This document shows positions 5,114 through 45,093 of a stretch of 47,729 bases of DNA, piece after piece. This DNA comes from a virus, in the IMG/VR virus record IMGVR_UViG_3300025674_000069, positions 1 to 47,729 of that record; one strand, 5' to 3'. The notes beneath the pieces are model-generated. The model did not search any database. It saw nothing but the letters and a program-made list of their open reading frames with translations, and was not told the DNA's origin. The position numbers and the translations under genes are program-made. How positions within the stretch are numbered: the stretch's first letter is position 1; the number at the start of each line of letters is the position of its first letter.

Positions 5114-7312
5114 TCAAGACCCCACGCTTAATTTATATTCCAAGCCCAAGACTGTCATCGAGAGCGGAACGGTTTGACCAATTGTGATTTGCCCGGTTGC
5201 ACTATAACCAAGTATCCCGTGCGCTGTTTTTACACCGGTAAATGGTTGGACCGCAGTATCCAGAACACTTTCACCAAAGTTTCTAAACGAAATTTGTTTG
5301 CCATTGATTGTCAGATCTTTTGTTTCAGAAACAATTGCATCAACCTGAACAATTCGTTTCTTTACGCCTTGAACACTACCAGAAGCAAGCACCGGTTCAG
5401 TTGGCATTGTTTTTGCCTGGACCGTATAATTCAAACCAACCTGATAGCTTGAAGTTGCCGCAGTTTCAAATGTTATAGTATATGGAGACGCTCCGACCGT
5501 CTGAGAAGGCTCCACAACACCATCTCGCACAATCTCGACCTCTTTACCCTCAAGGTGCGACATAGCCACTGACGATGCCGCTGTGCCGCTCTTAGCACTA
5601 TCCAGCGTCAAAGAATTATCAAATTTCTCAAGATAGTACACAGTCGCAGAATTTACTGTACGCTTTACAATAGCGTACACATCCGCAATCTCTACAGCTA
5701 TAGCTAAAAATTCACCGTCCGTTGTGAACTTACTAGGCGCAATTACGTTCTGACCGACCAATATAGAATACACTGATATTGATCCATCATCACCATTTAC
5801 AACAAATAATCGATCTGCTTCATCAGTTGACGTTGATCGACGTGCCGCTAGGTCAACGGGATTTTTAATTAAGTGAGATGATAAAACAGAGATCTGTTGG
5901 ATCTGATATGATGAAGTTGTATTTCCAAATTGAAACGCATTAAGGGATTTACCTTGGCGTTGCACAAATACTGACGCGCCATTTAAATCTTCAATAGGAA
6001 CACCGGGTTTTGATCCAAGTCGAGTTTGTGGGCGTATTAAGAAATTATTAGGGGTTATTGGTGTATCTTCTGATTGAACAACAACGAACTCACCTCCGGT
6101 TGAGAAGATCCGCATATCTGCACCAGATATAACATTCACAATACTATTTAATTGATTTGTGTTGATCGTTGCTTCAACGCTTTCATCATCCAATCCAGTA
6201 CCAGGATCAAAGTTGAAATAATCAATTACACGGGATCCCCATATTGTATTGGGTCTGGATTTTGATCCACCAAAATATAAACGACCTTCATGGAAAGTTG
6301 CAGATCGAGGCCATCCTCTAGTGCTAGACCAAACATCTTCATAACCATGTTCACTTTCCCAATTACCAGCAACAACCGCGCTAGTATCAAAGAAAGGAAC
6401 TTCCACATATGCTTTCATTTGTGTGGCGCTTACATATTCAACATATCGCGCCCGGCCAAATGTACTTGTAACCTGAAGATATTCACCAACGGCTGCGGGA
6501 GCATATGCTTCAACTTTATATCCAGTAGTGTTATTGGGCTGAGTATCCCATGCTGGATAAACTGTAAGAACCTTTGTAGATGCAACATAATCTTCAACGT
6601 GTCGAGTTTGGCCAGAGCCAGCGCCAGATGTTAAAGTAATGAACATTCCATTTGGATCATCATCAGATGTAAAGCTACTAGCCGCTTTTAAAGTAATTGT
6701 ATCGCTGCCACCGGCTTGAGCCGTACCAGTATCAGTTGTTACACTAGATGCTGTAACAGTAATATTTCCAGATGTTGCGCTGGGCGTAATATCAAAATTA
6801 GGACTATGCGTATCAAAAGCATAGGCATACTTTGGAAGATTAGTGATGGGCAAATTCTCAAGTGTCCAAGACGTATCTGTATTTCTTACAAGTCTTTTAG
6901 TTTGCAAATCTTCATGGCAAAGAATTAAAGTATCTACCGCTTGAGTATATTGCAATTCGTCCAGCATAGCAGCCGTGATAGCCGATGCTGTAATATAATC
7001 ATTACCGGAACCATTTATATTTGTTTGAAGCGTCCCATCTTTAAAAACATAAATACGTCCAGAAACAATTACCAATATATAACTATCATTCACACTGAAC
7101 TCAAAAGGTATAAGTTTAAAGTCTGTGAATGAAGATCCAAAGTTATGGATAAACTTTAGTCCATCTCTGCGCTTAATTCCGCCTTGTGGTTGCACAAGTA
7201 CATTTGTCGCTTCCTCAAGCGCGTTCTGATATTGCTGAAGATCTGTTCTAGCCCTGAGTAAAGGATCCAACTCTCCGACAGAAAAGTTAGTTTGGAACTG
7301 CGTAATTCTCAT
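5114..7312 (-). CDS. Tail tubular protein B-like nozzle protein (version A)
   Basis: A 732-aa, beta-rich protein starting MRITQFQTNFSVGELDPLL. This N-terminus, together with QNALEEATNVLVQPQGG and RRDGLKF, is typical of the podovirus stabilization or nozzle protein family (T7 gp12 is 794 aa). Its ATG shares its last base with the stop of the tail tubular A gene at 7312, as is usual for this pair. It forms the hexameric tail nozzle (family knowledge). The version B homologue (37192-39732, 846 aa) is longer because of an extra C-terminal domain between the shared motifs FETAATSSYQVGLNY and its upstream block. Confidence 0.85.
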   Translation of the reverse strand: MRITQFQTNFSVGELDPLLRARTDLQQYQNALEEATNVLVQPQGGIKRRDGLKFIHNFGSSFTDFKLIPFEFSVNDSYILVIVSGRIYVFKDGTLQTNINGSGNDYITASAITAAMLDELQYTQAVDTLILCHEDLQTKRLVRNTDTSWTLENLPITNLPKYAYAFDTHSPNFDITPSATSGNITVTASSVTTDTGTAQAGGSDTITLKAASSFTSDDDPNGMFITLTSGAGSGQTRHVEDYVASTKVLTVYPAWDTQPNNTTGYKVEAYAPAAVGEYLQVTSTFGRARYVEYVSATQMKAYVEVPFFDTSAVVAGNWESEHGYEDVWSSTRGWPRSATFHEGRLYFGGSKSRPNTIWGSRVIDYFNFDPGTGLDDESVEATINTNQLNSIVNVISGADMRIFSTGGEFVVVQSEDTPITPNNFLIRPQTRLGSKPGVPIEDLNGASVFVQRQGKSLNAFQFGNTTSSYQIQQISVLSSHLIKNPVDLAARRSTSTDEADRLFVVNGDDGSISVYSILVGQNVIAPSKFTTDGEFLAIAVEIADVYAIVKRTVNSATVYYLEKFDNSLTLDSAKSGTAASSVAMSHLEGKEVEIVRDGVVEPSQTVGASPYTITFETAATSSYQVGLNYTVQAKTMPTEPVLASGSVQGVKKRIVQVDAIVSETKDLTINGKQISFRNFGESVLDTAVQPFTGVKTAHGILGYSATGQITIGQTVPLSMTVLGLEYKLSVGS

Positions 7313-7929
7313 CAGTACCTCGCCTGTATAAGCGCGTAATCCTCTATTACCTGACTTGATTGGCCACGACCGTCAATATTCATTGCCTTGCGCATTTCAC
7401 CACCTCGACCGTTTTCAGCCGGGGATCCAAATGCTAAAGCATGAAAAAAATCTGCCTTCGCCGCTTGGTCTGTAATAACTATTGCAAGCTCTGCCGCCAA
7501 AGCCAAACGAAGCAATCTCACAAAGTATGATGGCATTTTACTTTCAGAAACAGTTGCCTGATAATCAATGTATAATGTTTCAAGGTTGGTATATATTTGA
7601 TCTCCATAAATCTCCCATCCATATCGCAATGGACGCTCTGTCGTACCACTTGTTTCAAAAACCGCTAAAACACCGGAAAGCATATCGCCGGGAAGTTGAT
7701 ACGCATATTTCCACTCATTTACAGGATTTGTTGATAACCTAGCCAGCTGCAACTTTTTTAAAGTCCAAGACCATTGATAGGTGCTAAGAATTGTATCTCT
7801 GAGATCAGGATAAAGTCGATCACATGCCTGGGCGCTATCCGTTCCCTCTGTAAACGACGAAAGAGGCGCAGCCCCTAAGAGGATTAACGCATCCGAACAA
7901 ATAGATAGATCCGTATCGCCAGCAGCCAT
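7312..7929 (-). CDS. Tail tubular protein A-like adaptor (version A)
   Basis: A 205-aa protein. The pattern SICSDALILLGA, then ACDRLYPDLRDTIL and STYQWSWTLKK, is the hallmark of phage tail tubular protein A/gp11-type adaptors (T7 gp11 is 196 aa). It sits between the portal and nozzle in the tail. The downstream neighbour is the nozzle gene (shared base at 7312). Upstream is a terminator hairpin and then the capsid genes, the same order as T7 genes 10, 11 and 12. The counterpart 39732-40349 has the same length. Confidence 0.85.
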   Translation of the reverse strand: MAAGDTDLSICSDALILLGAAPLSSFTEGTDSAQACDRLYPDLRDTILSTYQWSWTLKKLQLARLSTNPVNEWKYAYQLPGDMLSGVLAVFETSGTTERPLRYGWEIYGDQIYTNLETLYIDYQATVSESKMPSYFVRLLRLALAAELAIVITDQAAKADFFHALAFGSPAENGRGGEMRKAMNIDGRGQSSQVIEDYALIQARY

Positions 7930-7952
7930 GATAACCCTCCAATGTGATTAAA

Positions 7953-7972
7953 GGGGCCAGTTACCCAGCCCC
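7953..7972 (-). terminator. Terminator-like hairpin after the capsid genes (version A side)
   Basis: On the minus strand, GGGGCUGGGUAACUGGCCCC folds into an 8-pair stem (two G-U pairs) closed by a GUAA tetraloop (GNRA type), followed by UUUAAU. It lies between the capsid/decoration genes and the tail genes, where T7 has its T-phi terminator. It probably lowers transcription of tail genes relative to capsid. The U-tract is short, so read-through is expected. Confidence 0.6.
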
Positions 7973-7980
7973 TCATTATT

Positions 7981-8259
7981 TTAGTCACCGTCCGTTGCGG
8001 CCAGTGTCGTACCGTCTGCAACGTCAACAACACCGCCAGTATTGGACAGAACTTGCGTAAGTGTGCTTACGCGAGTGCCGCCAGTAGATGACACAACATA
8101 AATCAAATCGCCAACCGCCAGAGTATCTGACAAGCTGTTGAAATAGCCTTCTGTGTTTACAGTCGCTATCGTATCTGCGGTTTGATATGTATAGATAACA
8201 GGGGCATTGCCTTTTTTGCCTGGACCCCCATCACCGAAACCTGTTTTATCAAAAGCCAT
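7981..8259 (-). CDS. Small head decoration-like protein
   Basis: A 92-aa, beta-rich, Thr/Val/Gly-rich protein. It follows the capsid gene after 12 bases and ends with an acidic ATDGD. Small beta proteins directly downstream of the capsid gene in phages are often head decoration or stabilization proteins, and that is the only basis for the role. The residues GFGDGGPGKKGNAPVIYTY near the start suggest a flexible arm followed by a compact beta fold. The identical second copy is at 40404. Confidence 0.5.
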   Translation of the reverse strand: MAFDKTGFGDGGPGKKGNAPVIYTYQTADTIATVNTEGYFNSLSDTLAVGDLIYVVSSTGGTRVSTLTQVLSNTGGVVDVADGTTLAATDGD

Positions 8260-8271
8260 ATGTCAGTCTCC

Positions 8272-9105
8272 TTATTCAGTACAGCTGATTTTAACGATGC
8301 CCTCATCGTCAATAGCAACCGCACCAGCAGAGAACATAGAACTTACGAGGAACGATGTTTTCTCTGGGATGTAGTTTACTTCTGACTTCTGAGAGATGCT
8401 TTCAGCATAACCCATGCTGTCTTGATGCCAAGCAAAGCATGTGCGGGTTGATGGCTTGGGAACACCGCCTTCATCACGATCACCCATTGTGATAATGTTG
8501 AAGCCCATGAACGAAGTGATCTCACCGCGAACAAGTGCTTTTACGGAAGCAAAGTCGCTTGAAGTAACTTCTGTTTCACCGAGCAACGCATCAAGCTGAG
8601 AAGAGTGCATCAGCAAGTGACGACCTTCGGCTGGTACGTTGTTATCGTTCAGCGCTTTCGCAGCCGCACGAAGTTTTTCGATGTTCATGTTTGAAGACGC
8701 ACCACCCACAGATGTCGCAACAGTTGATGGAGATGCAGCCGCATCAAGTGCATCAATGCAAAGCTGGTCCATACGGCGAGCAATCGCTTTTGAAACAACC
8801 TGCACCAATTCACGGCGCTCATCAAAGTTGACGTGTGATTGATGAAAGATGTCTGAATATTCTGCTGCGATATAATCAGACATTGTGGCGGTAACCTGGC
8901 TATAGGTTACGTTCAATGGAGTTACGTCAGTTTGTGGAACACGAACTGTTGCAACACCTTTACCGATTTTTGGGAACTTTACTGTGTTGCCCTGGACACC
9001 GGTACGTGTCCGCATTGTGCCGCGAAGCAACGCTTCGCCTTGGTATGCCTGTTTAACTTCCTCATCGAAAAGCGTTACAAAGGCATTAGTAATACTCTGC
9101 GCCAT
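8272..9105 (-). CDS. Major capsid protein
   Basis: A 277-aa protein starting MAQSITNAFVTLFDEEVKQ, with a GNTVKFPKIG segment, then MDQLCIDALDA and a C-terminal domain containing SFMGFNIITMGDRDE. This arrangement (N-arm, beta segment, spine helix, A-domain sheet) fits a HK97-fold capsid of small podovirus type. The start is supported by a very strong ribosome site, UAGGAGG, about 9 bases upstream. The gene lies downstream of the scaffold with a 176-base leader, which suggests separate control of its expression. A second identical copy is at 40695-41528. Confidence 0.85.
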   Translation of the reverse strand: MAQSITNAFVTLFDEEVKQAYQGEALLRGTMRTRTGVQGNTVKFPKIGKGVATVRVPQTDVTPLNVTYSQVTATMSDYIAAEYSDIFHQSHVNFDERRELVQVVSKAIARRMDQLCIDALDAAASPSTVATSVGGASSNMNIEKLRAAAKALNDNNVPAEGRHLLMHSSQLDALLGETEVTSSDFASVKALVRGEITSFMGFNIITMGDRDEGGVPKPSTRTCFAWHQDSMGYAESISQKSEVNYIPEKTSFLVSSMFSAGAVAIDDEGIVKISCTE

Positions 9106-9281
9106 AGCAGAAGCCTCCTATTAGGTTTCAACTCAAAACGCTTACTGTTAGCCGATGTAAACCGGGCAGTCGCTTGCGCGAAAGTGGCCGCGCCCACCAG
9201 TGGATTACCACATCAAGGGGCCGCGCAGCGGTTAGCCCTTAATCTGCCTATACACCCAAAATGTAGTGATTGCAACAAAAT
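9106..9281 (-). promoter_or_regulatory. Structured leader before the capsid gene
   Basis: 176 bases without a gene. On the minus strand there is a hairpin GTGG-ATTA(or TAAT)-CCAC at 9200-9211. There is also a GC-rich nested stem near 9217-9240, in which CCGC and GCGG pair inside GGGC/GCCC. Next to the scaffold stop, TTGCAA and TATAGG are 17 bases apart, a weak sigma70-like match. The region may hold a capsid promoter and a structured 5' leader, possibly stabilizing the mRNA. The same sequence is in the second copy (41529-41704). Confidence 0.35.
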
Positions 9282-10049
9282 CTAGCTATTTGCCGCCGCC
9301 CATTGCTTTTCAATCTTTGTTCGCCATGCTGCATCGGTCTGCCAACGTGGGTCTGCAATCGCTGAAGCAAGATCTTCTCTGGTCATTTCAGGCGTGTCCA
9401 CAACCGGCGTTGTCGGTATGCCTTCGTTCGTATAACCCTGAATAAACTTGGTCATTGCATTGATTGCATCAGCACTGTTCAGGCTGTAGGCCAAAGCCTC
9501 GCGCTCTGAGTTTGTCAGTGATGCACGGGTGATATGACGCTCAAGATACGCAATTTTTTCTTGGCCTCGCTCGCCAAGCTTCTGCATTTCTTGTCGCCGA
9601 TCATATTCTATGGCCTCTTGGCTACTTTGAGAAAACTCTAGGACTTGCCCCGCAAGCTCTTCAAAAGCTTGTTGCGAGATACCATATTTTTTAGACCAAT
9701 CTTGAAACGCCTGGACTGAAGGATCTTCCAAGTCCAAACCCTTATCCACCAGATCTTTAGTGTCATAATCGCCATCCGGCGCTTTGTGTTTACCTGCTTT
9801 AAAAGCCTTTTCAAGCTCTGCATAGCTTTTTGCCAACTTCTCAACATCAGGGCCATCATCATCCCAAAATTTTTCTGGATAAAAGTCAGGACGTTCCAGC
9901 GGTTCACCATCATCAATATCAACCTCTTCATTTTCTTCTGGCCGTAATTGAAACGGTTGTTCTTGTTCTTGCGGCTGTTCTTCTGGCTTTTGAAAATTAA
10001 CCAGAGGAGCCTCCTCAGAGACTTCAATTGTTTCTGCTTGTTCAGACAT
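9282..10049 (-). CDS. Scaffolding (capsid assembly) protein
   Basis: A 255-aa protein read from the ATG at 10049, which has AAGGAG eight bases upstream; a longer start at 10076 lacks such a site. It is strongly acidic in the first 75 residues (Glu/Gln-rich), then has FYPEKFWDDDGPDVEKLAKSY, a motif I recognise from T7-like capsid assembly proteins. The C-terminal half is helical and more basic at the end. It lies between the Bbp19-like gene and the capsid gene, the usual scaffold position. It should help shell assembly and be absent from mature virions. Confidence 0.75.
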   Translation of the reverse strand: MSEQAETIEVSEEAPLVNFQKPEEQPQEQEQPFQLRPEENEEVDIDDGEPLERPDFYPEKFWDDDGPDVEKLAKSYAELEKAFKAGKHKAPDGDYDTKDLVDKGLDLEDPSVQAFQDWSKKYGISQQAFEELAGQVLEFSQSSQEAIEYDRRQEMQKLGERGQEKIAYLERHITRASLTNSEREALAYSLNSADAINAMTKFIQGYTNEGIPTTPVVDTPEMTREDLASAIADPRWQTDAAWRTKIEKQWAAANS

Positions 10050-10299
10050 TATTGCTCCTTCCCACCCTGCGCTCAATCAGACGCACAAGCTCAGTCATGC
10101 CTGTTCTCACAAAACCGTGACTAGGATCTTCGCCTGGATACCAAGATGGTTGTTCTATAGTTATCTGTCTCAGGTGATGTAACACCTTCTGACCTTCCTC
10201 AGATTTAAAGACCCGTCCATAAAGTATGTCCAGATCATCCGCCTTTGGCGGCTCGACAAACGCTTGACTTATTCCTTCCCAACCGTCTGGCGAACTCAT
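10042..10299 (-). CDS. Bbp19-like small phage protein
   Basis: An 85-aa protein with GRVFKSEEGQKVLHHLRQ near residues 28-45. This resembles the small Bbp19-type domain found next to portal genes in podoviruses; the role of the family is unknown. The stop overlaps the scaffold start by 8 bases, and its ATG overlaps the portal TGA (ATGA). It is therefore part of a tightly coupled head-gene series. Confidence 0.6.
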   Translation of the reverse strand: MSSPDGWEGISQAFVEPPKADDLDILYGRVFKSEEGQKVLHHLRQITIEQPSWYPGEDPSHGFVRTGMTELVRLIERRVGRSNNV

Positions 10300-11852
10300 T
10301 GCATGGCCTCTGCTACTGTTTCATCAGTGGGCATAGGTTGCTGCTGTTCTATCATAGCTTGCTGCATTTGCTGCATCATCATTTGTTGCTCTTCCGGTGT
10401 ATTCAATACACGTTGATCGATTCCCATTTTTTCCGCAATGAACGAAATACTTTCTGGGATGTTAATAATTGCTTGTCCCATTGGTCCCATAGAATTGGCA
10501 ATCTGCATAAAGCTGAGAAGCTGATTGACCTCTTCCATCTTGGGAGCCTCGGCAAGAGGCGATACCGGCGTGACTTTGATCTGCACACCATTGACCTTGA
10601 GGGGCATATTAATCAAGCCCTGACGGTCCAGAACGAATAGGATACGCGAAACTAGAGGCGTCATAATCTCGGTCATCAAGCGACCAAATGCCGATCCAAG
10701 ATTAGAAGCTAATTCACGTTGACGCTGTGCTATCTCTGTAGCGGATCGCGCAGACATGGTATCGGGCGGGAGCGTATCATCCATCAAGATCTTTTTGATG
10801 TTTACTCTGAGATCCTGAATAACGATCTGGCTTGTGTTAAAGTCCCCAGCCTTGGGCAGAGGGGCCAGGGACGCGCCTTGTGGACCACCGTTTCGGGCAA
10901 CAGGAATAATCGCACCAGGCTGTATTTTGATGCTTTGAGGATTTAGAACACCGTCATCTGCGGCGAGATATACGCCTGAAATAGACAAGCTTGCATTCTT
11001 GAGAACAAGCTCCAAGGTTTTGTTTAGCGTTTTGATATCTGCAATTGCATCAACCAAAGGACCGCGCCCATATATTTCACCGGCTGTTTTGCTGAACCGG
11101 GCAACAATGAAGGGACTGGATGGCATTTCACGATAAACAATCTCTTGCGCTTTGGCTGGCCAAATAACGTGATAATGATATCGGCCTGTCTCTTGGTCAA
11201 AGATAACCGCATCAAACAGATCAAGCTCCTCAGAACCACGACGATCTATTGCGTCCTGCAATTCCGTTGTGATCTGAACGTCTGGGAACTCTCTTGTGAT
11301 GGATTCCGCCTTGATACGCAGCTTGCGATAGACGTTATCAACCATGCCATATGCGCCTTCCTCAATGGCCACTAGGTATTGTGGTATCGCAAGAAAACGA
11401 ATGGGGGTAACTTCATCGCCGGGCGTTACCATCATAACCGCCGTACCCACGCAGAGATCCAGCAAAAATTCACCCATAGCCAGATCGAAACTTGTCTGAC
11501 GTAGCTGGTCAAACATAATATCAACGTAAGCATCAAGTATTTGCTGCGCTCTTGGCTGATCTTGCTCAGGTACAGCCGAGCCGGGTTCTAAACGGCACCA
11601 ATGCCGATTAGGGGGGAACAACCCGGATTGAAGTCTGTTGGCGAAACGCTTGGTTGAGGACATGGCCGTGGAATCAAATACACGCTGCATCTTGCCTTTG
11701 CCGGGCGTTTTGCCTTCGTAATAGCCGTTGTATAAGTTTCGTTGCGGCAGAGCAAATTCATAGCAATCTTCGTAGATTGTACGCCATTCATCTTTGCGAG
11801 CTTGTGCTTTTGCCTCTCGCGCAATGACTTCTCTCGTTGATAGCTTAGGCAT
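10296..11852 (-). CDS. Portal protein (T7-type head-tail connector)
   Basis: A 518-aa protein (T7 gp8 is 536 aa). The N-terminus has DEWRTIYEDCYEFALPQRN and a RVFDSTAMSSTKRFANRLQS block, both characteristic of podovirus head-to-tail connector proteins. The centre includes GRGPLVDAIADIKTLNKTLE and LPPDTMSARSATEIAQRQRE. The C-terminus is Met/Gln-rich (QQMMMQQMQQAM), likely a crown or barrel helix. It forms the dodecameric DNA gate at the vertex. It lies between the small basic genes and the scaffold. The second copy is at 42719-44275. Confidence 0.93.
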   Translation of the reverse strand: MPKLSTREVIAREAKAQARKDEWRTIYEDCYEFALPQRNLYNGYYEGKTPGKGKMQRVFDSTAMSSTKRFANRLQSGLFPPNRHWCRLEPGSAVPEQDQPRAQQILDAYVDIMFDQLRQTSFDLAMGEFLLDLCVGTAVMMVTPGDEVTPIRFLAIPQYLVAIEEGAYGMVDNVYRKLRIKAESITREFPDVQITTELQDAIDRRGSEELDLFDAVIFDQETGRYHYHVIWPAKAQEIVYREMPSSPFIVARFSKTAGEIYGRGPLVDAIADIKTLNKTLELVLKNASLSISGVYLAADDGVLNPQSIKIQPGAIIPVARNGGPQGASLAPLPKAGDFNTSQIVIQDLRVNIKKILMDDTLPPDTMSARSATEIAQRQRELASNLGSAFGRLMTEIMTPLVSRILFVLDRQGLINMPLKVNGVQIKVTPVSPLAEAPKMEEVNQLLSFMQIANSMGPMGQAIINIPESISFIAEKMGIDQRVLNTPEEQQMMMQQMQQAMIEQQQPMPTDETVAEAMQ

Positions 11853-12198
11853 TTGCCTTGTTCCTCTTGCTTATAGCGGCAGCTTTACGTTTAGCATCCG
11901 CTGTAGATGAAGCGCCCCAGGCGCGGAGCGACAACAATTTCCGTGTCGGTCGGCCCTTGCTGTCACGATCCGGCCCGGGGTTCCCCGCCATTCGAGCCAG
12001 GAAGGACGCTCTGCGGGGATTGTCGCCGGATTTGACAGGGGCTTTTAAATTAGATCCCTCTTTGCGCTTGAAGTAAGCGCGACCGGCAGCGTTCAATCCG
12101 CCCTTAGGATTTTGATACGCTTTTTTTACCACTACTTGTTGCCTTTTTCTTTGGGGCGGCTTTTTTCTTTGGAGCCTTCCCGCCTTCCCAAGCTTCAT
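11845..12198 (-). CDS. Basic phage protein, DUF6321-like; start uncertain
   Basis: The ORF is 117 aa. The segment from about residue 27 on (KAYQNPKGGLNAAGRAYFKR, later RRASFLARMAGNPGP and LSLRAWG) resembles a conserved family of small phage proteins known as DUF6321, of unknown function. The first 26 residues overlap the 69-aa gene (12104-12313) out of frame for 95 bases and are unlike the family. The true product may therefore start at an internal GTG near 12133, or arise by frameshifting from the 69-aa gene at the A7 run (12121-12127). It is very basic. Its stop overlaps the portal start. Confidence 0.6.
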   Translation of the reverse strand: MKLGKAGRLQRKKPPQRKRQQVVVKKAYQNPKGGLNAAGRAYFKRKEGSNLKAPVKSGDNPRRASFLARMAGNPGPDRDSKGRPTRKLLSLRAWGASSTADAKRKAAAISKRNKANA

Positions 12199-12313
12199 TC
12201 ACGTCTGGGGTAGATGGATCATCTGAAACCAACTGCCCCTTTTCATTTCTTGCGCGTTGTGGCTGGGGATCAGCTTTTTGGTAAACGCGAGAATCTTCTT
12301 TGATTTTTGTCAT
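12104..12313 (-). CDS. Lys/Ala-rich small protein
   Basis: A 69-aa protein with an AGGAAG ribosome site five bases before its ATG. It has a charged N-terminus and a histone-like tail, KAPKKKAAPKKKATSSGKK. The tail is encoded over an A7 run (12121-12127), after which the +1 frame continues into the DUF6321-like reading frame. It could be a stand-alone DNA-binding peptide or the N-terminal half of a frameshift product. It lies in the series of small basic proteins between terminase and portal. Confidence 0.55.
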   Translation of the reverse strand: MTKIKEDSRVYQKADPQPQRARNEKGQLVSDDPSTPDVNEAWEGGKAPKKKAAPKKKATSSGKKSVSKS

Positions 12314-12324
12314 ACTGCTTCCTA

Positions 12325-12669
12325 TCAGATATTCATTAGCAACCGGCGGCGACGAGCGGTTTCTTCACCCCTCTTCTTTTCAAACGCCTTACGCTTTTTT
12401 TGTCCTTCGGCCCGTTCTTCTGCCAGTTTTGCGGCTTTCTCTTGCTCGAAAAGCATTTGCGCAGATGGGCGTTTACTTCTCCGCTTCTCGCGCTTCTTTT
12501 CGTTTCTTCTTGACCGCTCCAGCATTTCCTCATGTTTTTTTCGACTTACTGCGGAACGCGCCCGAAAGCTTGGTGACTTTGGCTCAAGGCCAAGACCCAT
12601 GCGAATATCAGATCCAAGCGTTTCTTTTTTTGCTTGTGCCTTTAATGGCTGAGTCCCGCCCTTCGGCAT
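12325..12669 (-). CDS. Highly charged coiled-coil-like protein
   Basis: A 114-aa protein read from the ATG at 12669, which has GGGGGA eight bases upstream; an alternative GTG lies at 12684. Residues 40-114 are almost entirely Arg, Lys, Glu and Gln, in a heptad-like helical pattern (KKHEEMLERSRRNEKKREKR). It is likely a nucleic-acid-binding or scaffold-associated helix. The function is unknown. It starts 2 bases after the stop of the 82-aa gene. Confidence 0.55.
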   Translation of the reverse strand: MPKGGTQPLKAQAKKETLGSDIRMGLGLEPKSPSFRARSAVSRKKHEEMLERSRRNEKKREKRRSKRPSAQMLFEQEKAAKLAEERAEGQKKRKAFEKKRGEETARRRRLLMNI

Positions 12670-12670
12670 A

Positions 12671-12919
12671 TCAAGATCCCCCACCCAACATTCTGGTCGT
12701 TGCCATTCCCGGCCCCTCTTGACGTGCTGGGGAGAATAATAATCTTAAACCACCGCGACGAAGTAATCTTCTTCTGGCTTGTGCGCCCTGCATCTCTGTG
12801 CGTTCTTGGGTCGTCGCACGTTCTTCAGCCCGTTCTTGCGCCGCTGTTGCCTGCTCTTGAGCGCGAACTTCTTCAACGCTTGGCTCTCTTCTACGTCTGC
12901 CACCACCTAGTCCAGCCAT
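12671..12919 (-). CDS. Small Arg/Glu/Gln-rich protein
   Basis: An 82-aa protein with a Gly/Arg-rich start (MAGLGGGRRRREPS), a long charged helix rich in AQERAEERATTQE, and a Gly-rich end. The start codon overlaps the stop of the acetyltransferase-like gene (TAATG), so translation is coupled. Short proteins of this kind with no recognisable domain are common between terminase and portal in marine podoviruses. Function unknown. Confidence 0.5.
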   Translation of the reverse strand: MAGLGGGRRRREPSVEEVRAQEQATAAQERAEERATTQERTEMQGAQARRRLLRRGGLRLLFSPARQEGPGMATTRMLGGGS

Positions 12920-13401
12920 TACTCAAACCTCGCCATCGCATAGTAGTCAGCCCCCTCTGGGCCAAACTTTCTTAATATGCACTCTACCTCAAAATGTAGT
13001 GCCTTAGCAAACCTTAATGCGCGGGTATTGTCCACTTTTACGAAGATTTGCATGCGTCTGATATCTGTATCAGACATCACTTCACGCAAAAGCGCCCTTG
13101 CACCGATCAAAGTTGACCTTGCATGACGATCCAAGCCCTCGCCCGGAATGAACCAAGCCTCGACCAAACCGGGCCATATATCTCTTACTCCGAAGATAGC
13201 AATGACCTTGCCGCGCCCGATAGCGGTCCATGACCAGCCCAGCACAGAATAGTCCCAAACATAATCTCTGTAGTGCGGTATATGTCTGGCGTATTCCTCC
13301 TCATGCGGCCCCAGCTTAATATTATAAACATGGCTGAGTGTGAGCGGAACGATTTGCTCATCGGTTCGCATTTGAAAAGTTGGTAGCTGGATCAGTCCCA
13401 T
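12919..13401 (-). CDS. GNAT-like acetyltransferase or gp13-like virion protein
   Basis: A 160-aa protein. The order of a beta-strand core (WSWTAIGRGKVIAIFGVRDI), then WPGLVEAWFIPGEGL, a helix (RSTLIGARALLREVM) and the final IQVKVDNTRALRFAKALHFE-like segment with NTRALRFAKALHF is typical of GNAT proteins. The canonical Q/RxxGxG/A acetyl-CoA loop is degenerate (DRHARSTL), so activity is uncertain. T7 gp13 is a small GNAT-like protein needed for virion assembly, and this gene lies within the structural block directly after terminase. A role in assembly is therefore as likely as catalysis. Confidence 0.55.
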   Translation of the reverse strand: MGLIQLPTFQMRTDEQIVPLTLSHVYNIKLGPHEEEYARHIPHYRDYVWDYSVLGWSWTAIGRGKVIAIFGVRDIWPGLVEAWFIPGEGLDRHARSTLIGARALLREVMSDTDIRRMQIFVKVDNTRALRFAKALHFEVECILRKFGPEGADYYAMARFE

Positions 13402-14921
13402 CAGAACACGTTAAATTCTGTTTCCGCAGAATAGCTTTGTGCTGCGAAGGAATTGCCATAGCTACCCCTGCGCAATCGACGTTGTTCACCACCGCCCAGC
13501 ATAAGATATCCAAACGCATCCCCGCAGTGTGAATGATCGTTCTTCACGGGCGTATCTTTAAATCGATCTTGCCCAGCGCCCATGCTTTGACGCTTGAAAA
13601 AGTATCCACCGCTTAGAGATTTGCGCAATCTCAGGCATTTCTTATCCACCATCAGCCCAGGTTTGCCATTTATCAGCCGCCCCATAGGACTAGCCCCAGC
13701 CTCTCGTCTGACTTGAAACGCATTGCTTTCTGTTGGTTGTGCTTTGAAACCAAGTGATCTGAGATGGTCAAAGGCTGTAACCTCGTAAATCTCATCCCGT
13801 TTATTCCCCGCCGGATCGCCCCAAATCAGAATATCATGCTTAGAATATTTCTGAGCAATCAGTGCCATCATTTCTTGACCAAACCGCTCAAGGCCCATGT
13901 CAAACGTCACAAGCTCATCGCAGATCCGCCACGCCCCCGCTTGTGTTCTCTGCCCAAAGATCGCCGCCGGTGTTAATCCGAAGTCAACGCCAATCTGCAT
14001 TGGATAATACGGATCGACCTCAACATCCCCGCTCATCAATTCATCGTCATACTCCGGCCAGACCGGACGCCCTTCTTGCACAAACGTGTACATTCCCTGC
14101 GCATAACATCTAATCCAATCCGCATTCTTTCCGCCGAGAAGCTGCTGATAATATCCGGGCGGCAGATTGTTTCTATTCTCCGCATCCTCATTGGTTTTCC
14201 ACCATTTGCCCCCAGAAAACACATGGCCCTGCGCCTCTGGATTCTCAGGAACATCTTTCCCATCCACTGCCAAAACACCGCCGGGTTGTCTGAAGAACGT
14301 CCACGGATAGGCACCACCAATCGGATTTTTCTCTGCCAATTCATGCCACCAATGGTCATTGTCAGGCGGGTTCGTATCCATCCAAATGCCGTACCATGTC
14401 GGAGAACCATCCGCTTTTGTCGGATATCGCCCAACTCTGTGCGTCAAACCATCAATAACAGCTTTCGGCAACTCTCTGGCCTCATTCACCCAAGCCCCCG
14501 TAAGCTCCAATGACAGCAATTTCCGTACATCTTGCGGAGAAGAAAGGGCCATGAAGATCACTTCGCAATCAATGCCCGGAATATCCTCTCTCGTCGGAAT
14601 CCGAATATGGTGCGAAATAGGCGGTTGCCAGCGCATACCACCCCAAACATCCTCTGGAAACAACTCTTGCCACGTCTTAATCGTCGTTGTTCTCAATTCA
14701 GGATAAGTATTTCTAACAATCACAAACCGAGAATATCTGATCCCATCTCTGGGGCTGGGCCTTTGACGCACCGCCCGTAACATAATCTCAGCCGCACACC
14801 CGTAAGACTTCCCAGATCCAACCGGGCCCATTAATCCCCGAACAAAACTGTCATCATGCAGAAACTTCCAAACAGTCGGACTGTTCTCAAAGTTTAAATC
14901 AAGGCTGGGTATCGCGCTCAT
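13401..14921 (-). CDS. terL: Terminase large subunit
   Basis: A 506-aa protein. The Walker A motif GPVGSGKS is at 32-39 and a Walker B-type strand with acidic partner (GAWVNEARE) at about 142-150. A C-terminal RNase H-like nuclease follows, with Asp residues in GVDFGL (D313), IWGDPAG (D369) and HCGDAFGYL (D468). It is an ATP-driven motor and DNA-cleaving subunit that packages DNA through the portal. The start overlaps the small subunit stop (ATGA at 14918-14921). The second copy is at 45824-47344. Confidence 0.95.
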   Translation of the reverse strand: MSAIPSLDLNFENSPTVWKFLHDDSFVRGLMGPVGSGKSYGCAAEIMLRAVRQRPSPRDGIRYSRFVIVRNTYPELRTTTIKTWQELFPEDVWGGMRWQPPISHHIRIPTREDIPGIDCEVIFMALSSPQDVRKLLSLELTGAWVNEARELPKAVIDGLTHRVGRYPTKADGSPTWYGIWMDTNPPDNDHWWHELAEKNPIGGAYPWTFFRQPGGVLAVDGKDVPENPEAQGHVFSGGKWWKTNEDAENRNNLPPGYYQQLLGGKNADWIRCYAQGMYTFVQEGRPVWPEYDDELMSGDVEVDPYYPMQIGVDFGLTPAAIFGQRTQAGAWRICDELVTFDMGLERFGQEMMALIAQKYSKHDILIWGDPAGNKRDEIYEVTAFDHLRSLGFKAQPTESNAFQVRREAGASPMGRLINGKPGLMVDKKCLRLRKSLSGGYFFKRQSMGAGQDRFKDTPVKNDHSHCGDAFGYLMLGGGEQRRLRRGSYGNSFAAQSYSAETEFNVF

Positions 14922-15331
14922 TTTTCATCATCCACCACCTCAGCATACTCTGTCGTTGCCGCCGGTCCACGCATATTAATCCCAACAATCGATGGCTTAT
15001 CATTCTCTTTCTCAGGATTATCTAAGAAACCCGCTGCCTTCGCCAAGATGCGCAAAACACTTACCTTATCATGCAACTCAATCGATACACGACCATCTGG
15101 CATCGGAACAATCTTCTTTATCGCCCGTAACGCATAATCCGGTATTTCATCCAACGGACGCATAGAACCATCAAGATTCATAATCTCAGTAATCGAAGTG
15201 GTCCCAAGAGCAATCAACTCCTGGGCAACCGCTTCCTTGTTATTCTCCAATGTCTCACTGGTCCGAATACGCCGCTGTGCTAAACGTACACCACCAAATC
15301 TACCAATCGGAGTCTGTCTAGTCCTGGCCAT
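14918..15331 (-). CDS. Terminase small subunit-like protein
   Basis: A 137-aa protein. The central and C-terminal part (DYALRAIKKI, then VSIELHDKVSVLRILAKAAGFL) is the pattern seen in the distal part of many small terminase subunits, where the helix recognises that region of the ring. It is directly upstream of, and overlaps, the large subunit, the standard arrangement. The N-terminus is basic (MARTRQTPIGRFGGVRLAQRR). It should recognise the packaging site, which is often within or just next to this gene. Confidence 0.75.
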   Translation of the reverse strand: MARTRQTPIGRFGGVRLAQRRIRTSETLENNKEAVAQELIALGTTSITEIMNLDGSMRPLDEIPDYALRAIKKIVPMPDGRVSIELHDKVSVLRILAKAAGFLDNPEKENDKPSIVGINMRGPAATTEYAEVVDDEK

Positions 15332-15959: not shown

Positions 15960-16802
15960 TCAAGGTCTTAGCTTTTTTACTACCGCTCCGATTGTATTCT
16001 TGCTGCGTTTTGGTGCGCTTCCCAGCTTCTTTTGCACTGGAACCGTGAACCAAGCCAGCCCTCGCGGATAGTCGCGGCGGTTATCATGGCACCATTTCGC
16101 GTGTCCTTTGAGGATATCGCCCCATATCTCCACTGTCAGCCCATCCTTGACCCAACTTTCCATAACTTGATAATCTCTGTCATTGACTTGTCTTGGCGTT
16201 CCATAACTTTCAGCAATTCTTAAAAACAAAGAACAACACTGTCTACTGACATCACTTATACTGTTATATATACTGTTAAATGGTCTGTTTAGTGAAACTT
16301 CTGGGGTTTCAGGGGGTGAAACTTCTGAGGTTGCACCCTGTGAAACTTCTGAGGTTGACACGTTAGACTTATCCACAGGCAAATTAATGACTTCTGCTGG
16401 CTTCTTTTCCATCTGTTGTCTTAGCTTTTCTCTGCGTTCTTCTAAGCCTATTCTCTCTGCTGGTGATAGGTTTGCAAGTGCTTCCTCTTCTGTTTTTACG
16501 TCGTCATAGATGACCTTGTATGTTGTGGTTGTTTGTCCTTTGTAACGCCGCTTGGCTCTGACAATGTATTCTAAGTCTCTCAGTTTTCTTAGCTGCTTGT
16601 TGACTGCCTGGCGTGAGATGCCGAGATCGCTTGCCAACCGAGCCTGGCTAACGAACGTACAGCCCGTTTCATCGCAATAAGAACAGAGAGCCGCCAGCAC
16701 AGAGAGAGCCGTGGTTCTTGTGACCTGGGGATCGGTGATTGCTTTGATAGGTAAGATCGCAAACTTTCTGAGATCCTTTGCCCTGATCGTTACTGGTTTC
16801 AT
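15960..16802 (-). CDS. Winged-helix replication initiator-like protein
   Basis: A 280-aa protein read from the ATG at 16802, which overlaps the upstream TGA (ATGA) and is preceded by AAGGGGG; an upstream start at 16835 would overlap more. Residues 49-100 form a winged helix-turn-helix (SQARLASDLGISRQAVNKQL, then a basic wing). A linker follows, with three copies of the SEVS-type motif encoded by 24-bp repeats, then a C-terminal domain with YPRGLAWFTVP. This layout (N-terminal HTH, repeat-bearing linker with iterons in the gene, C-terminal helicase-contact domain) matches lambda O-type initiators. The C-terminal role is inferred. Confidence 0.6.
   Translation of the reverse strand: MKPVTIRAKDLRKFAILPIKAITDPQVTRTTALSVLAALCSYCDETGCTFVSQARLASDLGISRQAVNKQLRKLRDLEYIVRAKRRYKGQTTTTYKVIYDDVKTEEEALANLSPAERIGLEERREKLRQQMEKKPAEVINLPVDKSNVSTSEVSQGATSEVSPPETPEVSLNRPFNSIYNSISDVSRQCCSLFLRIAESYGTPRQVNDRDYQVMESWVKDGLTVEIWGDILKGHAKWCHDNRRDYPRGLAWFTVPVQKKLGSAPKRSKNTIGAVVKKLRP
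16292..16356. repeat. Three 24-bp-spaced iterons
   Basis: GTGAAACTTCTGNGGTT occurs at 16292, 16316 and 16340, spaced exactly 24 bases. The spacing is both eight codons and a little over two helical turns, so protein repeats and DNA-binding iterons are not separable by frame alone. The first copy differs by one base (GGGG in place of GAGG). Confidence 0.75.
16369..16377 (+). promoter_or_regulatory. DnaA box
   Basis: TTATCCACA exactly matches the high-affinity bacterial DnaA site. It lies 12 bases after the last iteron. Confidence 0.55.
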
Positions 16803-17422
16803 ATCTCCCCCTTCTTGGATAGCGATGATCCCCACTGAGCCGCCATTGCGTCAGCGATGCCTTGATATGTCATTGAGCGTATTTTCCACCTGTCTTTGCT
16901 TGGCGGCAAGTAATGCAGTCTTTGCCTCTCATTGTCGGGCAGCAAAAGCATTTCTTCTTTTACGTTGTTTGTTGGCGTCAGGTTCGGCAATCCTTTAAGC
17001 CAGAGACACGTTGCCTTTTGCTCCATATGGCCAAACATCCAAGGCTGGACAACTTGGCTTTGCTTAACACCACCAATGCGCTCTTTGCCGTATTTGTGCA
17101 TGATTGGGTTTTCTACGCATATTTTTGCTATTGGCGCGTTCAGCAGAAGCTTGAAAAACTGTGCGGCCTCATCAAGCAAAGCCCATCTTTCTGGATCTCG
17201 ATGCAACCAAGTCACACCAGCATTTGTTAAATAAGTACAAGGCGGGTGCGCTACCATTAAATCCCATTCTTCGTGCAGTAACGCAGCAACGTCACCTTGC
17301 CGATGGAATCGTGAACCGTCATCCGCTGGCAATAAATCGCAAGACCATGCGTCATGCCCAGCAGCGCGGAAAGCTTCACGCACACGACCAGAAAACTCGC
17401 AGGCCACAAGCACGCGCATCAT
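16799..17422 (-). CDS. Cytosine-C5 methyltransferase-like protein (short)
   Basis: A 207-aa protein. It starts VLVACEFSGRVREAFRAAGH (degenerate motif I) and DAWSCDLLP, then has HPPCTYLT (59-66, the Pro-Cys catalytic motif IV) and ENPIMHKYG (from 104, motif VI). These are the hallmarks of C5 methylases. It is much shorter than typical full enzymes, with no obvious target-recognition domain. The start overlaps the RusA stop and its stop overlaps the initiator ATG. It may protect phage DNA or modify it in an unusual way; activity is not proven. Confidence 0.65.
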   Translation of the reverse strand: MMRVLVACEFSGRVREAFRAAGHDAWSCDLLPADDGSRFHRQGDVAALLHEEWDLMVAHPPCTYLTNAGVTWLHRDPERWALLDEAAQFFKLLLNAPIAKICVENPIMHKYGKERIGGVKQSQVVQPWMFGHMEQKATCLWLKGLPNLTPTNNVKEEMLLLPDNERQRLHYLPPSKDRWKIRSMTYQGIADAMAAQWGSSLSKKGEI

Positions 17423-18566: not shown

Positions 18567-18733
18567 TCTGCCCATACTGCGACGGGGACGGCCAGGTTGA
18601 ATACGAAATCCCCCGGCCCCAAAGCTTCACACGGGATATCGGGTATATCGATACAAAGTGGGATGATTGTTTGATCTGTAAGGGAAGCGGAGAAATTGAA
18701 ACTGACAGAAAGGAAGGAAAAAATGCCAGTTAA
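18563..18733 (+). CDS. Small DnaJ-like zinc-ribbon protein
   Basis: A 56-aa protein from ATG 18563 (ATGA overlap). It has two CxxCxGxG-type motifs, CPYCDGDG (C3, C6) and CLICKGSG (C36, C39), which is the pairing used for a zinc site in DnaJ-type modules. It is often seen in small phage proteins of unknown role. Its 3' end overlaps the start of the RAMP-like gene by 11 bases. Confidence 0.7.
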   Translation: MICPYCDGDGQVEYEIPRPQSFTRDIGYIDTKWDDCLICKGSGEIETDRKEGKNAS

Positions 18734-19490
18734 AAAGTCCACGGAAGGCGCGTTAGTTACCGCGTTAAAACATGGTGAAATTAAGTTGCGACTTATCGGA
18801 GCAACCCCATTTTACTACAATTCAATGAGCATCAAAGCCAAGCGCGATTTGCTCATAGGCGGTACGCCAAAAACCACAGCGGAAAAGCGCGAGATAAAAC
18901 ACAATCCAGAAGAAGAGTTTCGGGATTCCGTGTATAAAAAAAGCCATGGGAACACGCACCTGTATTTTCCCCCGGCGGCAATCAAGCAAGCAATGTCTAC
19001 AGCGGCCATTGAAACAAAGGGAGTTGCGAGAACAAATGCACAGCGCCTTCTGTTTTTGCCACAATTGCAAACAGAAATCTATGGCAAGCCATATCTGAAG
19101 ATTGATACTGTGCGAATGGCAAACATAAACAAAACGCCAGACATGCGAACGAGGGCTTACTTGCCGGAATGGTGTGCAGAAATTGACATCAAGTTTGTGA
19201 TGCCTACGCTTTCGGCCTCAGATGTTTTCACTCTTCTACAGAATGCGGGTTCTATCATTGGACTTGGAGACTTTCGACAAGAGAAGGGACGCGGAGCATA
19301 TGGTTGCTTTACAGTAACCGGCGAAGAGTTGCCCAATTGGAAAGATTACAAGGACGATTGGAAGCGCATTACCAAGTTTGGAATGGAAGAACAAAAGTAT
19401 GCGTTGGATTATCCAGAGTATGCGGATGAAATGACAGCAGAGTTAATGGGCTTCTTGGATGAAGAACGCGCTCGCAGAATGGCAGCATAA
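18723..19490 (+). CDS. RAMP/Cas7-like phage protein next to the pentamer array
   Basis: A 255-aa protein; the ATG at 18723 has AGGAAGG at about 5 bases spacing, so an upstream in-frame start (18696) is rejected. Motifs include KLRLIGATPFYYNS (21-34), YFPPAAIKQAM (81-91), MRTRAYLPEW (141-150) and a Gly-rich loop GLGDFRQEKGRGAYG (180-194). I recognise this set from an uncharacterised family widespread in phages. The basic Gly-rich loop after a strand-helix-strand pattern resembles RAMP/Cas7-type RNA-binding proteins, but this fold call is inference. Immediately downstream (61 bases) begins the GGYNN array, so it may bind that nucleic acid. There are no catalytic residues I can name. Confidence 0.6.
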   Translation: MPVKKSTEGALVTALKHGEIKLRLIGATPFYYNSMSIKAKRDLLIGGTPKTTAEKREIKHNPEEEFRDSVYKKSHGNTHLYFPPAAIKQAMSTAAIETKGVARTNAQRLLFLPQLQTEIYGKPYLKIDTVRMANINKTPDMRTRAYLPEWCAEIDIKFVMPTLSASDVFTLLQNAGSIIGLGDFRQEKGRGAYGCFTVTGEELPNWKDYKDDWKRITKFGMEEQKYALDYPEYADEMTAELMGFLDEERARRMAA

Positions 19491-19513
19491 GGAGATGTTA
19501 TTGGCAAGCAATA

Positions 19514-19542
19514 CGGGTGGATACTTTGCCGTTGTTTACCCG
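19514..19542 (+). other. Hairpin just before the pentamer array
   Basis: CGGGT (19514-19518) pairs with ACCCG (19538-19542). A competing 7-pair stem with one G-U joins TTGCCGT (19527-19533) and ACGGTAA (19549-19555), which overlaps the first pentamer. Two alternative folds at the array's 5' edge could mark a processing point. Confidence 0.4.
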
Positions 19543-19550
19543 AACGACAC

Positions 19551-19880
19551 GGTAAGGCAAGGCGGTCGTGGCTCGGCTCGGTATTTCGTGGCGGGGTATG
19601 GTTTCGCAAGATGTGGTTTGGTCAGGCGGTCGAGGTATGGTGCGGACTGGCGGGGCAGGGCGAGGCTGGGACAGATATGGTCAGGCTCGGTACGGTTCGG
19701 CGGTCATGGCACGGACTGGCGAGACAAGGTTTGGTCCGGCTTGGCGGGGCAAGGCTTGGTCCGGTTGGGTCCGTTCAGGCAAGGCGGTCACGGAGTGGCG
19801 TGGCTGGGTGCGGTCTGTTTGGGTCAGGCGGTCGGGGTCCGGTGTGGCGCGGCCCGGTGTGATGCGGTCCGGTGTGGCAA
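19551..19880 (+). repeat. GGYNN pentanucleotide array with five GGCGGTC punctuation marks
   Basis: The plus strand has GG every 5 bases from 19551. At 19561, 19625, 19699, 19783 and 19827 there is GGCGGTC followed by two variable bases, which resets the phase by 9. Then come 11, 13, 15, 7 and 9 pentamers. Of these 55 pentamers, 47 begin GG, 53 begin with G and 51 have C or T in third place; the last two bases vary freely. The last unit also contains a 15-base repeat (GGTCC, GGTGT, GGCGC-like) three times. Three forward frames are open over it only because the composition lacks stops. The period of 5 argues against coding. Possible roles are a structured or protein-coated RNA, two-layer G-quadruplexes, or a DNA-binding landing pad. 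Confidence 0.9.
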
Positions 19881-19896
19881 CCAAAGCTAAAACCAA

Positions 19897-19923
19897 GGTG
19901 GGGGGTCGTGCTGATCCCTCACC
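19897..19923 (+). other. Hairpin just after the pentamer array
   Basis: GGTGGGGG (19897-19904) pairs with CCCTCACC (19916-19923), 8 pairs with one G-U, with an 11-base loop. No U-run follows, so it is not a classical terminator. It could protect or define the 3' end of an array RNA, or shield the ribosome site of the next gene at about 19935. Confidence 0.5.
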
Positions 19924-19947
19924 ATCCAACAAAAGGAAGGAAGAAAA

Positions 19948-20472
19948 ATGGAAGAAAGAATAGACAGAATATGGAACAAGGATGAGCGTCAAGAGATAGT
20001 TGATAGCTACCTCACAGAAACTCGGCGCAATATGTTCAAGGTTGATGAGTTTACAGAATGGCTTGAAGATAAACCAGACCATCCTTGCTATGAAAGGTTC
20101 TTTGGAACCGGCGACAAAGAAGCAGCGCGTCAATATCGCATGGCTTTGGCTCGTCAATTGGTCAGCGGATTGCGGATACAAATTCACATCCCACCTGTTG
20201 AAAAGGTAGATATCAGCAAGCTTGCGACAGTTATCAGCTACGAAGCGCCAGCTTTCATCAGCCCAATGTCAAACAGACGCAAAGGCGGTGGCTATGTTCC
20301 GTATGATCCAGAAGATGAGACATCAAGGGCTGAATTAAGGCGGCAAGCCGCAGCAGATTTGACCCGTTGGCTTAGTCGGTATCGCGGATGCGCCGAGGCT
20401 TTCGGTGTAAACCTACAGCCGATTGAAGAGATAGCCTCAAAGCTGCGAGGCGATCAGGAGGACGCAGCATGA
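19948..20472 (+). CDS. Hypothetical protein following the array
   Basis: A 174-aa protein with a strong AGGAAGGA ribosome site about 5 bases upstream. It is mostly helical, with RRNMFKVDEFTEWLEDKPDHP and YERFFGTGDKEAARQYRMAL, and a basic, Gly-rich middle (NRRKGGGYVPYDPEDE). It appears to be a conserved phage protein of unknown function. Its position directly after the array makes it a possible third member of the same unit. Its stop overlaps the next ATG. Confidence 0.65.
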   Translation: MEERIDRIWNKDERQEIVDSYLTETRRNMFKVDEFTEWLEDKPDHPCYERFFGTGDKEAARQYRMALARQLVSGLRIQIHIPPVEKVDISKLATVISYEAPAFISPMSNRRKGGGYVPYDPEDETSRAELRRQAAADLTRWLSRYRGCAEAFGVNLQPIEEIASKLRGDQEDAA

Positions 20473-39732: not shown

Positions 39733-40349
39733 CAGTACCTCGCCTGAATAAGAGAATAGTCCTCCACAATTTGCGTACCTTGACCACGCCCATCAATGTT
39801 CATTGCCTCACGCAGCAACCCGCCACGACCAGATTCACCCGGTGAACCATATGCTTGCGCACGAAAGTAATCTGCTTTTGTTGCCTGATCGGTTACGGTA
39901 ATTGCAATCTCTGAAGCCAATGCTACGCGCAAGAACCGCACGAAATAAGCTGGCATATTAGCCTCTGTTACCGTTGCCTGATAATCAATGTAAATGGTAT
40001 CCAGATTAGTAAATAACTGAGTGCCATATATTTCCCATCCATATCGTCTTGGGCGTGTACCGCTTGCGCTGCTATCAAAAACAGCTATCGGGCTTCCAAT
40101 AAGATCCGCTGGGAAGTCAAAGGCATTATCCCATTCGTTGACGGGAGCCGTTACATTCTTGCTAAGTTGGACTTTTTTAAGACTCCAACTCCAAGGATAG
40201 ACTGTCAGAAGATGGTTTTTAAGATCTGGGTAAAGTCTATTACAAGCGTCCGCTGTATCACTTCCATCTGTCAGAGATGTAATTGCAGCCGCGCCAAGAA
40301 GGACAAGGGCATCAGAGCAAATTGTTACATCAGTATCGCCAGTTGCCAT
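39732..40349 (-). CDS. Tail tubular protein A-like adaptor (version B)
   Basis: A 205-aa homologue of 7312-7929 with ICSDALVLLGAA, ACNRLYPDLKNHLL and VYPWSWSLKK. The length is identical. It directly follows the terminator hairpin (40373) and shares its end base with the nozzle gene. Confidence 0.85.
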   Translation of the reverse strand: MATGDTDVTICSDALVLLGAAAITSLTDGSDTADACNRLYPDLKNHLLTVYPWSWSLKKVQLSKNVTAPVNEWDNAFDFPADLIGSPIAVFDSSASGTRPRRYGWEIYGTQLFTNLDTIYIDYQATVTEANMPAYFVRFLRVALASEIAITVTDQATKADYFRAQAYGSPGESGRGGLLREAMNIDGRGQGTQIVEDYSLIQARY

Positions 40350-40372
40350 TATAGCCCTCCAAGAGTTTGAAG

Positions 40373-40392
40373 GGGGCCAGTTGCCCAGCCCC
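40373..40392 (-). terminator. Terminator-like hairpin after the capsid genes (version B side)
   Basis: The same hairpin as at 7953 with a GCAA loop (GNRA) in place of GUAA, plus one more G-C pair outside (40372/40393). Flanking bases differ, so the stem and loop class are kept while the sequence drifts. Confidence 0.6.
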
Positions 40393-40403
40393 CCAGGGGA
40401 TAA

Positions 40404-40682
40404 TTAGTCACCGTCCGTTGCGGCCAGTGTCGTACCGTCTGCAACGTCAACAACACCGCCAGTATTGGACAGAACTTGCGTAAGTGTGCTTACGCGAGTG
40501 CCGCCAGTAGATGACACAACATAAATCAAATCGCCAACCGCCAGAGTATCTGACAAGCTGTTGAAATAGCCTTCTGTGTTTACAGTCGCTATCGTATCTG
40601 CGGTTTGATATGTATAGATAACAGGGGCATTGCCTTTTTTGCCTGGACCCCCATCACCGAAACCTGTTTTATCAAAAGCCAT
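40404..40682 (-). CDS. Small head decoration-like protein (second copy)
   Basis: Identical to 7981-8259. The downstream flank here is the version B tail module. Confidence 0.5.
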   Translation of the reverse strand: MAFDKTGFGDGGPGKKGNAPVIYTYQTADTIATVNTEGYFNSLSDTLAVGDLIYVVSSTGGTRVSTLTQVLSNTGGVVDVADGTTLAATDGD

Positions 40683-40694
40683 ATGTCAGTCTCC

Positions 40695-41528: not shown

Positions 41529-41704
41529 AGCAGAAGCCTCCTATTAGGTTTCAACTCAAAACGCTTACTGTTAGCCGATGTAAACCGGGCAGTCGCTTGC
41601 GCGAAAGTGGCCGCGCCCACCAGTGGATTACCACATCAAGGGGCCGCGCAGCGGTTAGCCCTTAATCTGCCTATACACCCAAAATGTAGTGATTGCAACA
41701 AAAT

Positions 41705-44621: not shown

Positions 44622-44736
44622 TCACGTCTGGGGTAGATGGATCATCTGAAACCAACTGCCCCTTTTCATTTCTTGCGCGTTGTGGCTGGGGATCAGCTTT
44701 TTGGTAAACGCGAGAATCTTCTTTGATTTTTGTCAT
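44527..44736 (-). CDS. Lys/Ala-rich small protein (second copy)
   Basis: Identical to 12104-12313. Confidence 0.55.
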   Translation of the reverse strand: MTKIKEDSRVYQKADPQPQRARNEKGQLVSDDPSTPDVNEAWEGGKAPKKKAAPKKKATSSGKKSVSKS

Positions 44737-44747
44737 ACTGCTTCCTA

Positions 44748-45092: not shown

Positions 45093-45093
45093 A

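Follow-up and report, generated by a model that had tools for sequence, protein, structure and literature searches.

A period-5 GGYNN array in a podovirus-like phage as a very probable guide-RNA locus of a VIPR system

VIPR systems and the locus in the window

Viral Interference Programmable Repeat (VIPR) systems, described in a preprint of April/June 2026 (PMC13142463; bioRxiv 2026.04.26.720920), consist of a phage RAMP protein, Vipr, and vrRNAs made of GGY/NN units, through which double-stranded DNA is read with one skipped base per unit. Specifically, the GGYNN RNA is held by Vipr and its NN positions recognise the DNA, the skipped base falls mostly at the codon wobble position, and each vrRNA comprises 9-16 repeats followed by a structured 3' tail (PMC13142463). 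The function ascribed to the system is the programmable repression of competing elements; the Vipr of SUSP1 was tested experimentally, and small RNAs of the array co-purify with it (PMC13142463). Types I-VII are told apart by the phylogeny of Vipr, the architecture of the array and the vap gene, and the published accessory genes are vap1-6 (PMC13142463).

We analysed a stretch of viral DNA of 47,729 nucleotides (IMG/VR record IMGVR_UViG_3300025674_000069), hereafter the window. The array at positions 19551-19880 very probably encodes the guide RNAs of a VIPR system in a podovirus-like phage, and it is flanked by vipr and a candidate vap gene, all three on one strand. The identification rests on the family and fold of Vipr, the adjacency of gene and array, the structure and swapping of the cassettes, and the target matches obtained with a single skipped base. 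The features of the locus are as follows.

18723-19490, plus strand: vipr, a RAMP-fold protein of 255 aa (phrog_4652, family HMM, AF2/Foldseek, G-loop motif)
19546-19560, plus strand: conserved leader GACACGGTAAGGCAA, 5' of the first separator, identical or nearly so in all near relatives compared
19561-19567, 19625-19631, 19699-19705, 19783-19789 and 19827-19833, plus strand: separator GGCGGTC, five exact 7-mers; it bounds cassettes in relatives too
19568-19624, plus strand: guide cassette W1, NN = GT TC TC AT GT GG AT TT AA GT TT CA; putative target, an HK97-type major capsid gene
19632-19698, plus strand: guide cassette W2, NN = GA AT GC CT GG AG GA TG CA AT CA TC AC TC; assigned by cassette structure
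19706-19782, plus strand: guide cassette W3, NN = AT AC CT GA AA TT CC TT GG AA TT CC TG CC CA AA; putative target, the N-terminus of an HMO-2011-type coat gene
19790-19826, plus strand: guide cassette W4, short, with eight NN = AC GT GT TG GC CT TG CA; assigned by cassette structure
19834-19880, plus strand: last cassette, GGTCC GGYGT GGCGC GGCCC GGTGT GATGC GGTCC GGTGT GGCAA, nearly constant among near relatives
19881-19923, plus strand: conserved 3' tail with an 11-bp hairpin at 19897-19923 (GGTGGGGGGTC-GTGCT-GATCCCTCACC), kept in seven relatives
19948-20472, plus strand: candidate vap (VIPR accessory) gene, 174 aa, mostly helical, at a conserved position downstream of vipr

Judged by its sequence and modelled structure, the gene upstream of the array encodes Vipr, a single RAMP-fold protein of one sequence family with SUSP1 Vipr; an alternative TTG start at 18696 is possible. 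The window protein matches phrog_4652 with an E value of 5e-11, and an HMM grown from its family matches SUSP1 Vipr (about 28.47-29.06 kb of the SUSP1 record) at E 8e-46. The AF2 model (pLDDT 91.7, pTM 0.86) was compared with the PDB by Foldseek, where the best 50 matches are all Cas7/Csm3-type RAMPs (top E 4.6e-6), and VIA likewise gave Csm3/Cas7 RAMPs with Z up to 10.5. Additionally, the protein sequence contains the glycine-rich G-loop motif GLGDFRQEKG..YGCF. Padloc returned no match. On the other side of the array, the product of 19948-20472 is a candidate VIPR accessory protein, a role suggested by its position: a homologue lies downstream of vipr at 69 of 80 loci (the best 80 of 515 relatives) and at 28 of the first 120 array loci. 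Its AF2 model (pLDDT 87) is mostly helical and has no PDB match at E<=0.001, and no homologue was detected in the SUSP1 genome.

The closest described system is that of SUSP1, an Escherichia phage and the type II exemplar, with which the window shares a RAMP-fold Vipr of the same family, an adjacent GGY/NN array and a neighbouring gene that in the window is a candidate accessory gene, as well as one-base-skip matches with the skip at the codon wobble position and, for the window, putative targets in competing phages. In SUSP1, however, each guide carries a hairpin tail and arrays stand on both sides of the genes (before and after), whereas the window has GGCGGTC separators, cassettes without tails of their own and one terminal hairpin. 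The emphasis of the SUSP1 paper (PMC13142463) is on satellites and prophage regulators, while the putative targets of the window are capsid genes of other tailed phages. An architecture like that of the window, with a frame-shifting separator and no tail between guides, may be the one in S18 of the same preprint (PMC13142463). Class 1 CRISPR effectors, in which Cas7/Csm3 filaments form on crRNA, resemble the locus in the Cas7-like fold, in a constant element between guides and in modular guide turnover, but the guide bases of the window are non-contiguous, its separators measure 7 nt and, among the groups compared, turnover is internal and not leader-polarised. A class 1 CRISPR-Cas repeat-spacer array was rejected as a description of the locus: its units are period-5 GGYNN, and in a test on 100 cassettes of relatives a contiguous reading of NN (skip 0) yields no matches below two mismatches.

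Layout and distribution of the array

The autocorrelation of GGY confirms the period of five that the earlier note had read from the letters. Between 19551 and 19880 lag 5 accounts for 35 GGY pairs, where 5000 dinucleotide-preserving shuffles average 3.3 (SD 1.8, maximum 12); lag 10 gives 29 pairs, and lags 3, 4, 6 and 7 give 5, 0, 4 and 0. The punctuation perceived in the array is the exact 7-mer GGCGGTC, each copy of which moves the frame by one base. Between the separators lie four variable cassettes of 57, 67, 77 and 37 nt, each built as NN + n x (GGYNN), followed by one constant cassette and the hairpin tail. Within these four internal cassettes, strict GGY is found in 35 of 46 units and a pyrimidine in third place in 42 of 46, close to the first count of 51 in 55. 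Cassettes hold 8-16 NN in the window and mostly 7-12 across loci, and 159 of 206 distinct cassettes have a length of 2 mod 5. Cassette and separator together measure 64, 74, 84 and 44 nt, and the reading frame is not kept.

Among the seven relatives that keep the tail hairpin, pairing is retained through one-sided changes. A search of Rfam gave sub-threshold matches only; an L2-Alphaproteobacteria leader over the tail hairpin (19876-19946) scored 22.7 bits, below the cut-off of 37.8, and is probably a chance match. A BLASTN search with the array recovered nothing from phage or plasmid collections, as is expected of a pattern as opposed to a sequence.

As the earlier note had suggested, we searched other phages with a period-5 model, in the form of a gene-blind DNA search of IMG/VR for the exact pattern (GGYNN)7GGY, and recovered it from at least 120 viral contigs. 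With an HMM grown from the window gene, a vipr homologue was found at 90 of 121 array loci among the matches listed, and the array lies on the strand of the homologue in 114 cases and on the opposite strand in 3 among the array loci listed. Its position varies, the array standing directly before the vipr homologue, directly after it, or past the next gene. A gene-first search found 515 Vipr relatives; in the best 80 of these, a same-strand array lies within 1.5 kb downstream at 62 of the 75 loci with enough downstream DNA, and opposite-strand arrays occur at 0 of 80. Run on both strands of 3.9 Mb of control viral contigs, the array caller returned no arrays. Protein similarity further led to two cultured carriers of the gene and array pair, the Gordonia phages Ecliptus (L437:2599-2804) and UmaThurman (L438:2587-2897), in which a vipr homologue is followed by a GGYNN array.

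Other layouts were also observed. In many loci, for example L083, L116, L058, L437 and L438, a 4-nt unit GGCA recurs every ~8-12 units and GGCGGTC is absent; in such arrays GGCA is perhaps the equivalent separator of other VIPR types. At L040, L003 and L079, longer repeated hairpin-like tails (30-55 nt) stand between GGYNN arrays, an architecture unlike that of the window.

Putative targets decoded with one skipped base

The guides were decoded by the published one-base-skip rule, in which NN is read and every third target base is skipped. The 16-base one-skip seed of W1 has 64 matches in IMG/VR, of which 30 extend to at least 21/24 and 22 to 23/24; in these 22 viral contigs the match is 22/22, or 23/24 with the last unit, the sole mismatch being the last base. 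All 30 matches of at least 21/24 lie in one gene, in opposite-strand reading and with the skip at the wobble position. This gene encodes an HK97-type major capsid protein (PF05065, E 3e-53; phrog_10) related to those of Rhizobium and Labrenzia phages. Labrenzia phage V1 has no W1 match. A W1 decoy with its units in reversed order gave 25 seed matches and a maximum of 20/24. In bacterial genomes W1 gave two Streptococcus matches at 21/24, which lie outside any capsid gene and were judged chance.

The 24-base one-skip pattern of W3 occurs in 14 contigs, in all of them within the first codons of one coat gene, and seven of the 14 match at 28/28 over the first 14 units; the chance expectation for such matches is estimated at well under 0.01. 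The gene encodes a phrog_267 major head protein with the N-terminus MAFxxAxGHGNLPNGNFSS, and the cultured relatives of this target group are HMO-2011-type phages of Rhodobacteraceae and SAR116. The W3 guide exists in two alleles, TG in the window fitting the His form GHGNLP and TA in the relative L219 fitting the Tyr form GYGNLP, and the L219 variant matches Roseobacter phage CRP-345 at 20/20 over the first 10 units. At the level of sequence, guide alleles track target alleles.

Read under the one-skip rule, W1 and W3 match the capsid genes of two other phage groups, which are their putative natural targets in rival phages, identified at up to 28/28 bases. The view that the two free bases carry information on a fixed GGY frame is thereby upheld, the NN bases decoding as guides to capsid genes. 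The 16-base seed of W2 gave four matches, none of them extendable, and no target was found; for W4 no target was identified among the collected loci. Within the window, no self-target above chance was seen for any cassette whose own NN string was searched (W1 maximum 17/24), and tblastn detected no homologue of either target capsid. The window's own capsid protein is phrog_3437, distantly related to phrog_267 in a profile search.

The code was also applied to 100 cassettes of relatives. Against a pool of 3.46 Mb, which includes contigs fetched with the W1 and W3 seeds and is therefore enriched for two phage groups, one skip gave 10 perfect and 6 one-mismatch guides, whereas on the same pool no guide came below two mismatches with a skip of 0 or 2 or with any of three shuffled sets. 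The 8 perfect guides obtained with skip 3 are taken to be unmasked remnants of period-5 arrays in the pool, since the arrays themselves repeat every five bases. The skipped base is codon position 3 in 13 of the 16 matching guides, and the targets with a family match comprise two capsid families, a head maturation protease and a terminase large subunit.

Cassette exchange, proposed mechanism and rival explanations

Five relatives (L219, L221, L222, L223 and L235) encode a Vipr 100% identical to that of the window; in them whole cassettes are shared, dropped or replaced, while leader, last cassette and tail are unchanged. In groups of close relatives, the cassette orders show swaps that are often internal with both ends shared, and we therefore infer that recombination between separators fits better than end-polarised acquisition; leader-polarised, CRISPR-like acquisition was rejected on the same orders. 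The mode of array change thus indicated is cassette exchange among phages with identical Vipr. A wider proposal, put forward tentatively and held by us to be somewhat doubtful as a whole, is that VIPR arrays of the window's subtype serve as collections of exchangeable guides directed at the head genes (capsid, head protease, terminase) of phages that occur alongside. Recombination between phages whose Vipr is identical would move whole cassettes, bounded by GGCGGTC, from one array to another, and the guide alleles would follow those of the capsid. If true, this would amount to guide updating at the population level by a non-CRISPR route, with vrRNAs made by separators rather than tails.

By analogy with the described system, transcription, processing, RNP formation, DNA binding and silencing would be expected in the window phage. 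In the proposed mechanism, the array would be transcribed into vrRNAs of GGY-NN units. Vipr subunits, which share the RAMP fold of Cas7, would occupy the GGY positions and offer each NN for the reading of double-stranded DNA. One target base in three, the codon wobble position, would be skipped, so that synonymous changes in the target would not matter, and binding of the complex to the DNA of a rival phage would block its transcription. The guides of the window would be aimed at the HK97-type capsid gene (Rhizobium/Labrenzia phage-related) and at the HMO-2011-type coat gene of marine Rhodobacteraceae phages, and the GGCGGTC-bounded cassettes would be exchangeable modules for re-aiming the array.

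Several other explanations were weighed. Two models of the earlier note, a DNA recognition array and an RNA covered by a protein that repeats with a 5-base footprint, each come close to one side of the answer: in VIPR the GGYNN RNA is bound by a RAMP protein, and its two free bases recognise DNA (PMC13142463). Its third model, chains of two-layer G-quadruplexes, has found no supporting evidence; guide decoding explains the NN bases, which quadruplexes would not. Its remark that no named phage element has such a form has been overtaken by the 2026 VIPR preprint (PMC13142463). A sequence-nonspecific RNA scaffold or decoy, in which GGY binds the Vipr filament and NN is filler, the RNA serving for instance to titrate a host factor or to control the mRNA of the operon, would agree with the constrained GGY, the variable NN, the place of the array inside an operon and the fact that targets are known for just two of the window's guides. 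We consider it very improbable, given that NN strings of 22-28 bases fit capsid genes of other phages at one-base spacing, a fit absent with shuffles and with skips 0 and 2, and that guide variants follow target alleles.

Slightly less probable again is a period-5 array of DNA sites for a DNA-binding protein, or a recombination hotspot, in place of an RNA guide. Recombination-type genes (Gp157-like and RusA) do lie near the array and cassettes do recombine, but the strict same-strand orientation with vipr (114 versus 3; 0 of 80 loci opposite), the RAMP fold of the neighbour and the decoded targets in other phages speak for a guide. The least probable explanation, which we regard as barely credible, is a degenerate or translated repeat forming a low-complexity protein-coding region. 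Frame 1 runs through the array free of stops (open 19459-19890), frames 0 and 2 have one stop each, and gp40 of UmaThurman is a CDS that its depositors annotated over the array; against this, close relatives differ by the exchange of entire cassettes, no frame survives the cassette lengths, and period 5 is retained across unrelated phages. The array is therefore non-coding, as originally claimed, and neither of the observations that had been named as contrary, a locus conserved as a protein frame or a period-5 signal no higher than in shuffles, was made. With uncultured marine phages as its source, the preferred VIPR reading adds computational evidence for an RNA-guided, non-contiguous code so far known from a single preprint.

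The genome of the window phage measures about 32 kb. The window contains a 9.7-kb direct repeat (5612-15306 and 38035-47729, offset 32423), whose copies share 93% identity over their full length and 100% over roughly the last 7.3 kb. It appears that the contig covers a circular genome of ~32.4 kb about 1.5 times and that one of its ends is a strain chimera; the contigs of the relatives L222, L225 and L249 measure ~31.8 kb. A 24-bp tandem repeat of 2.8 copies (16292-16357) lies within a replication-initiator-like gene (15963-16835).
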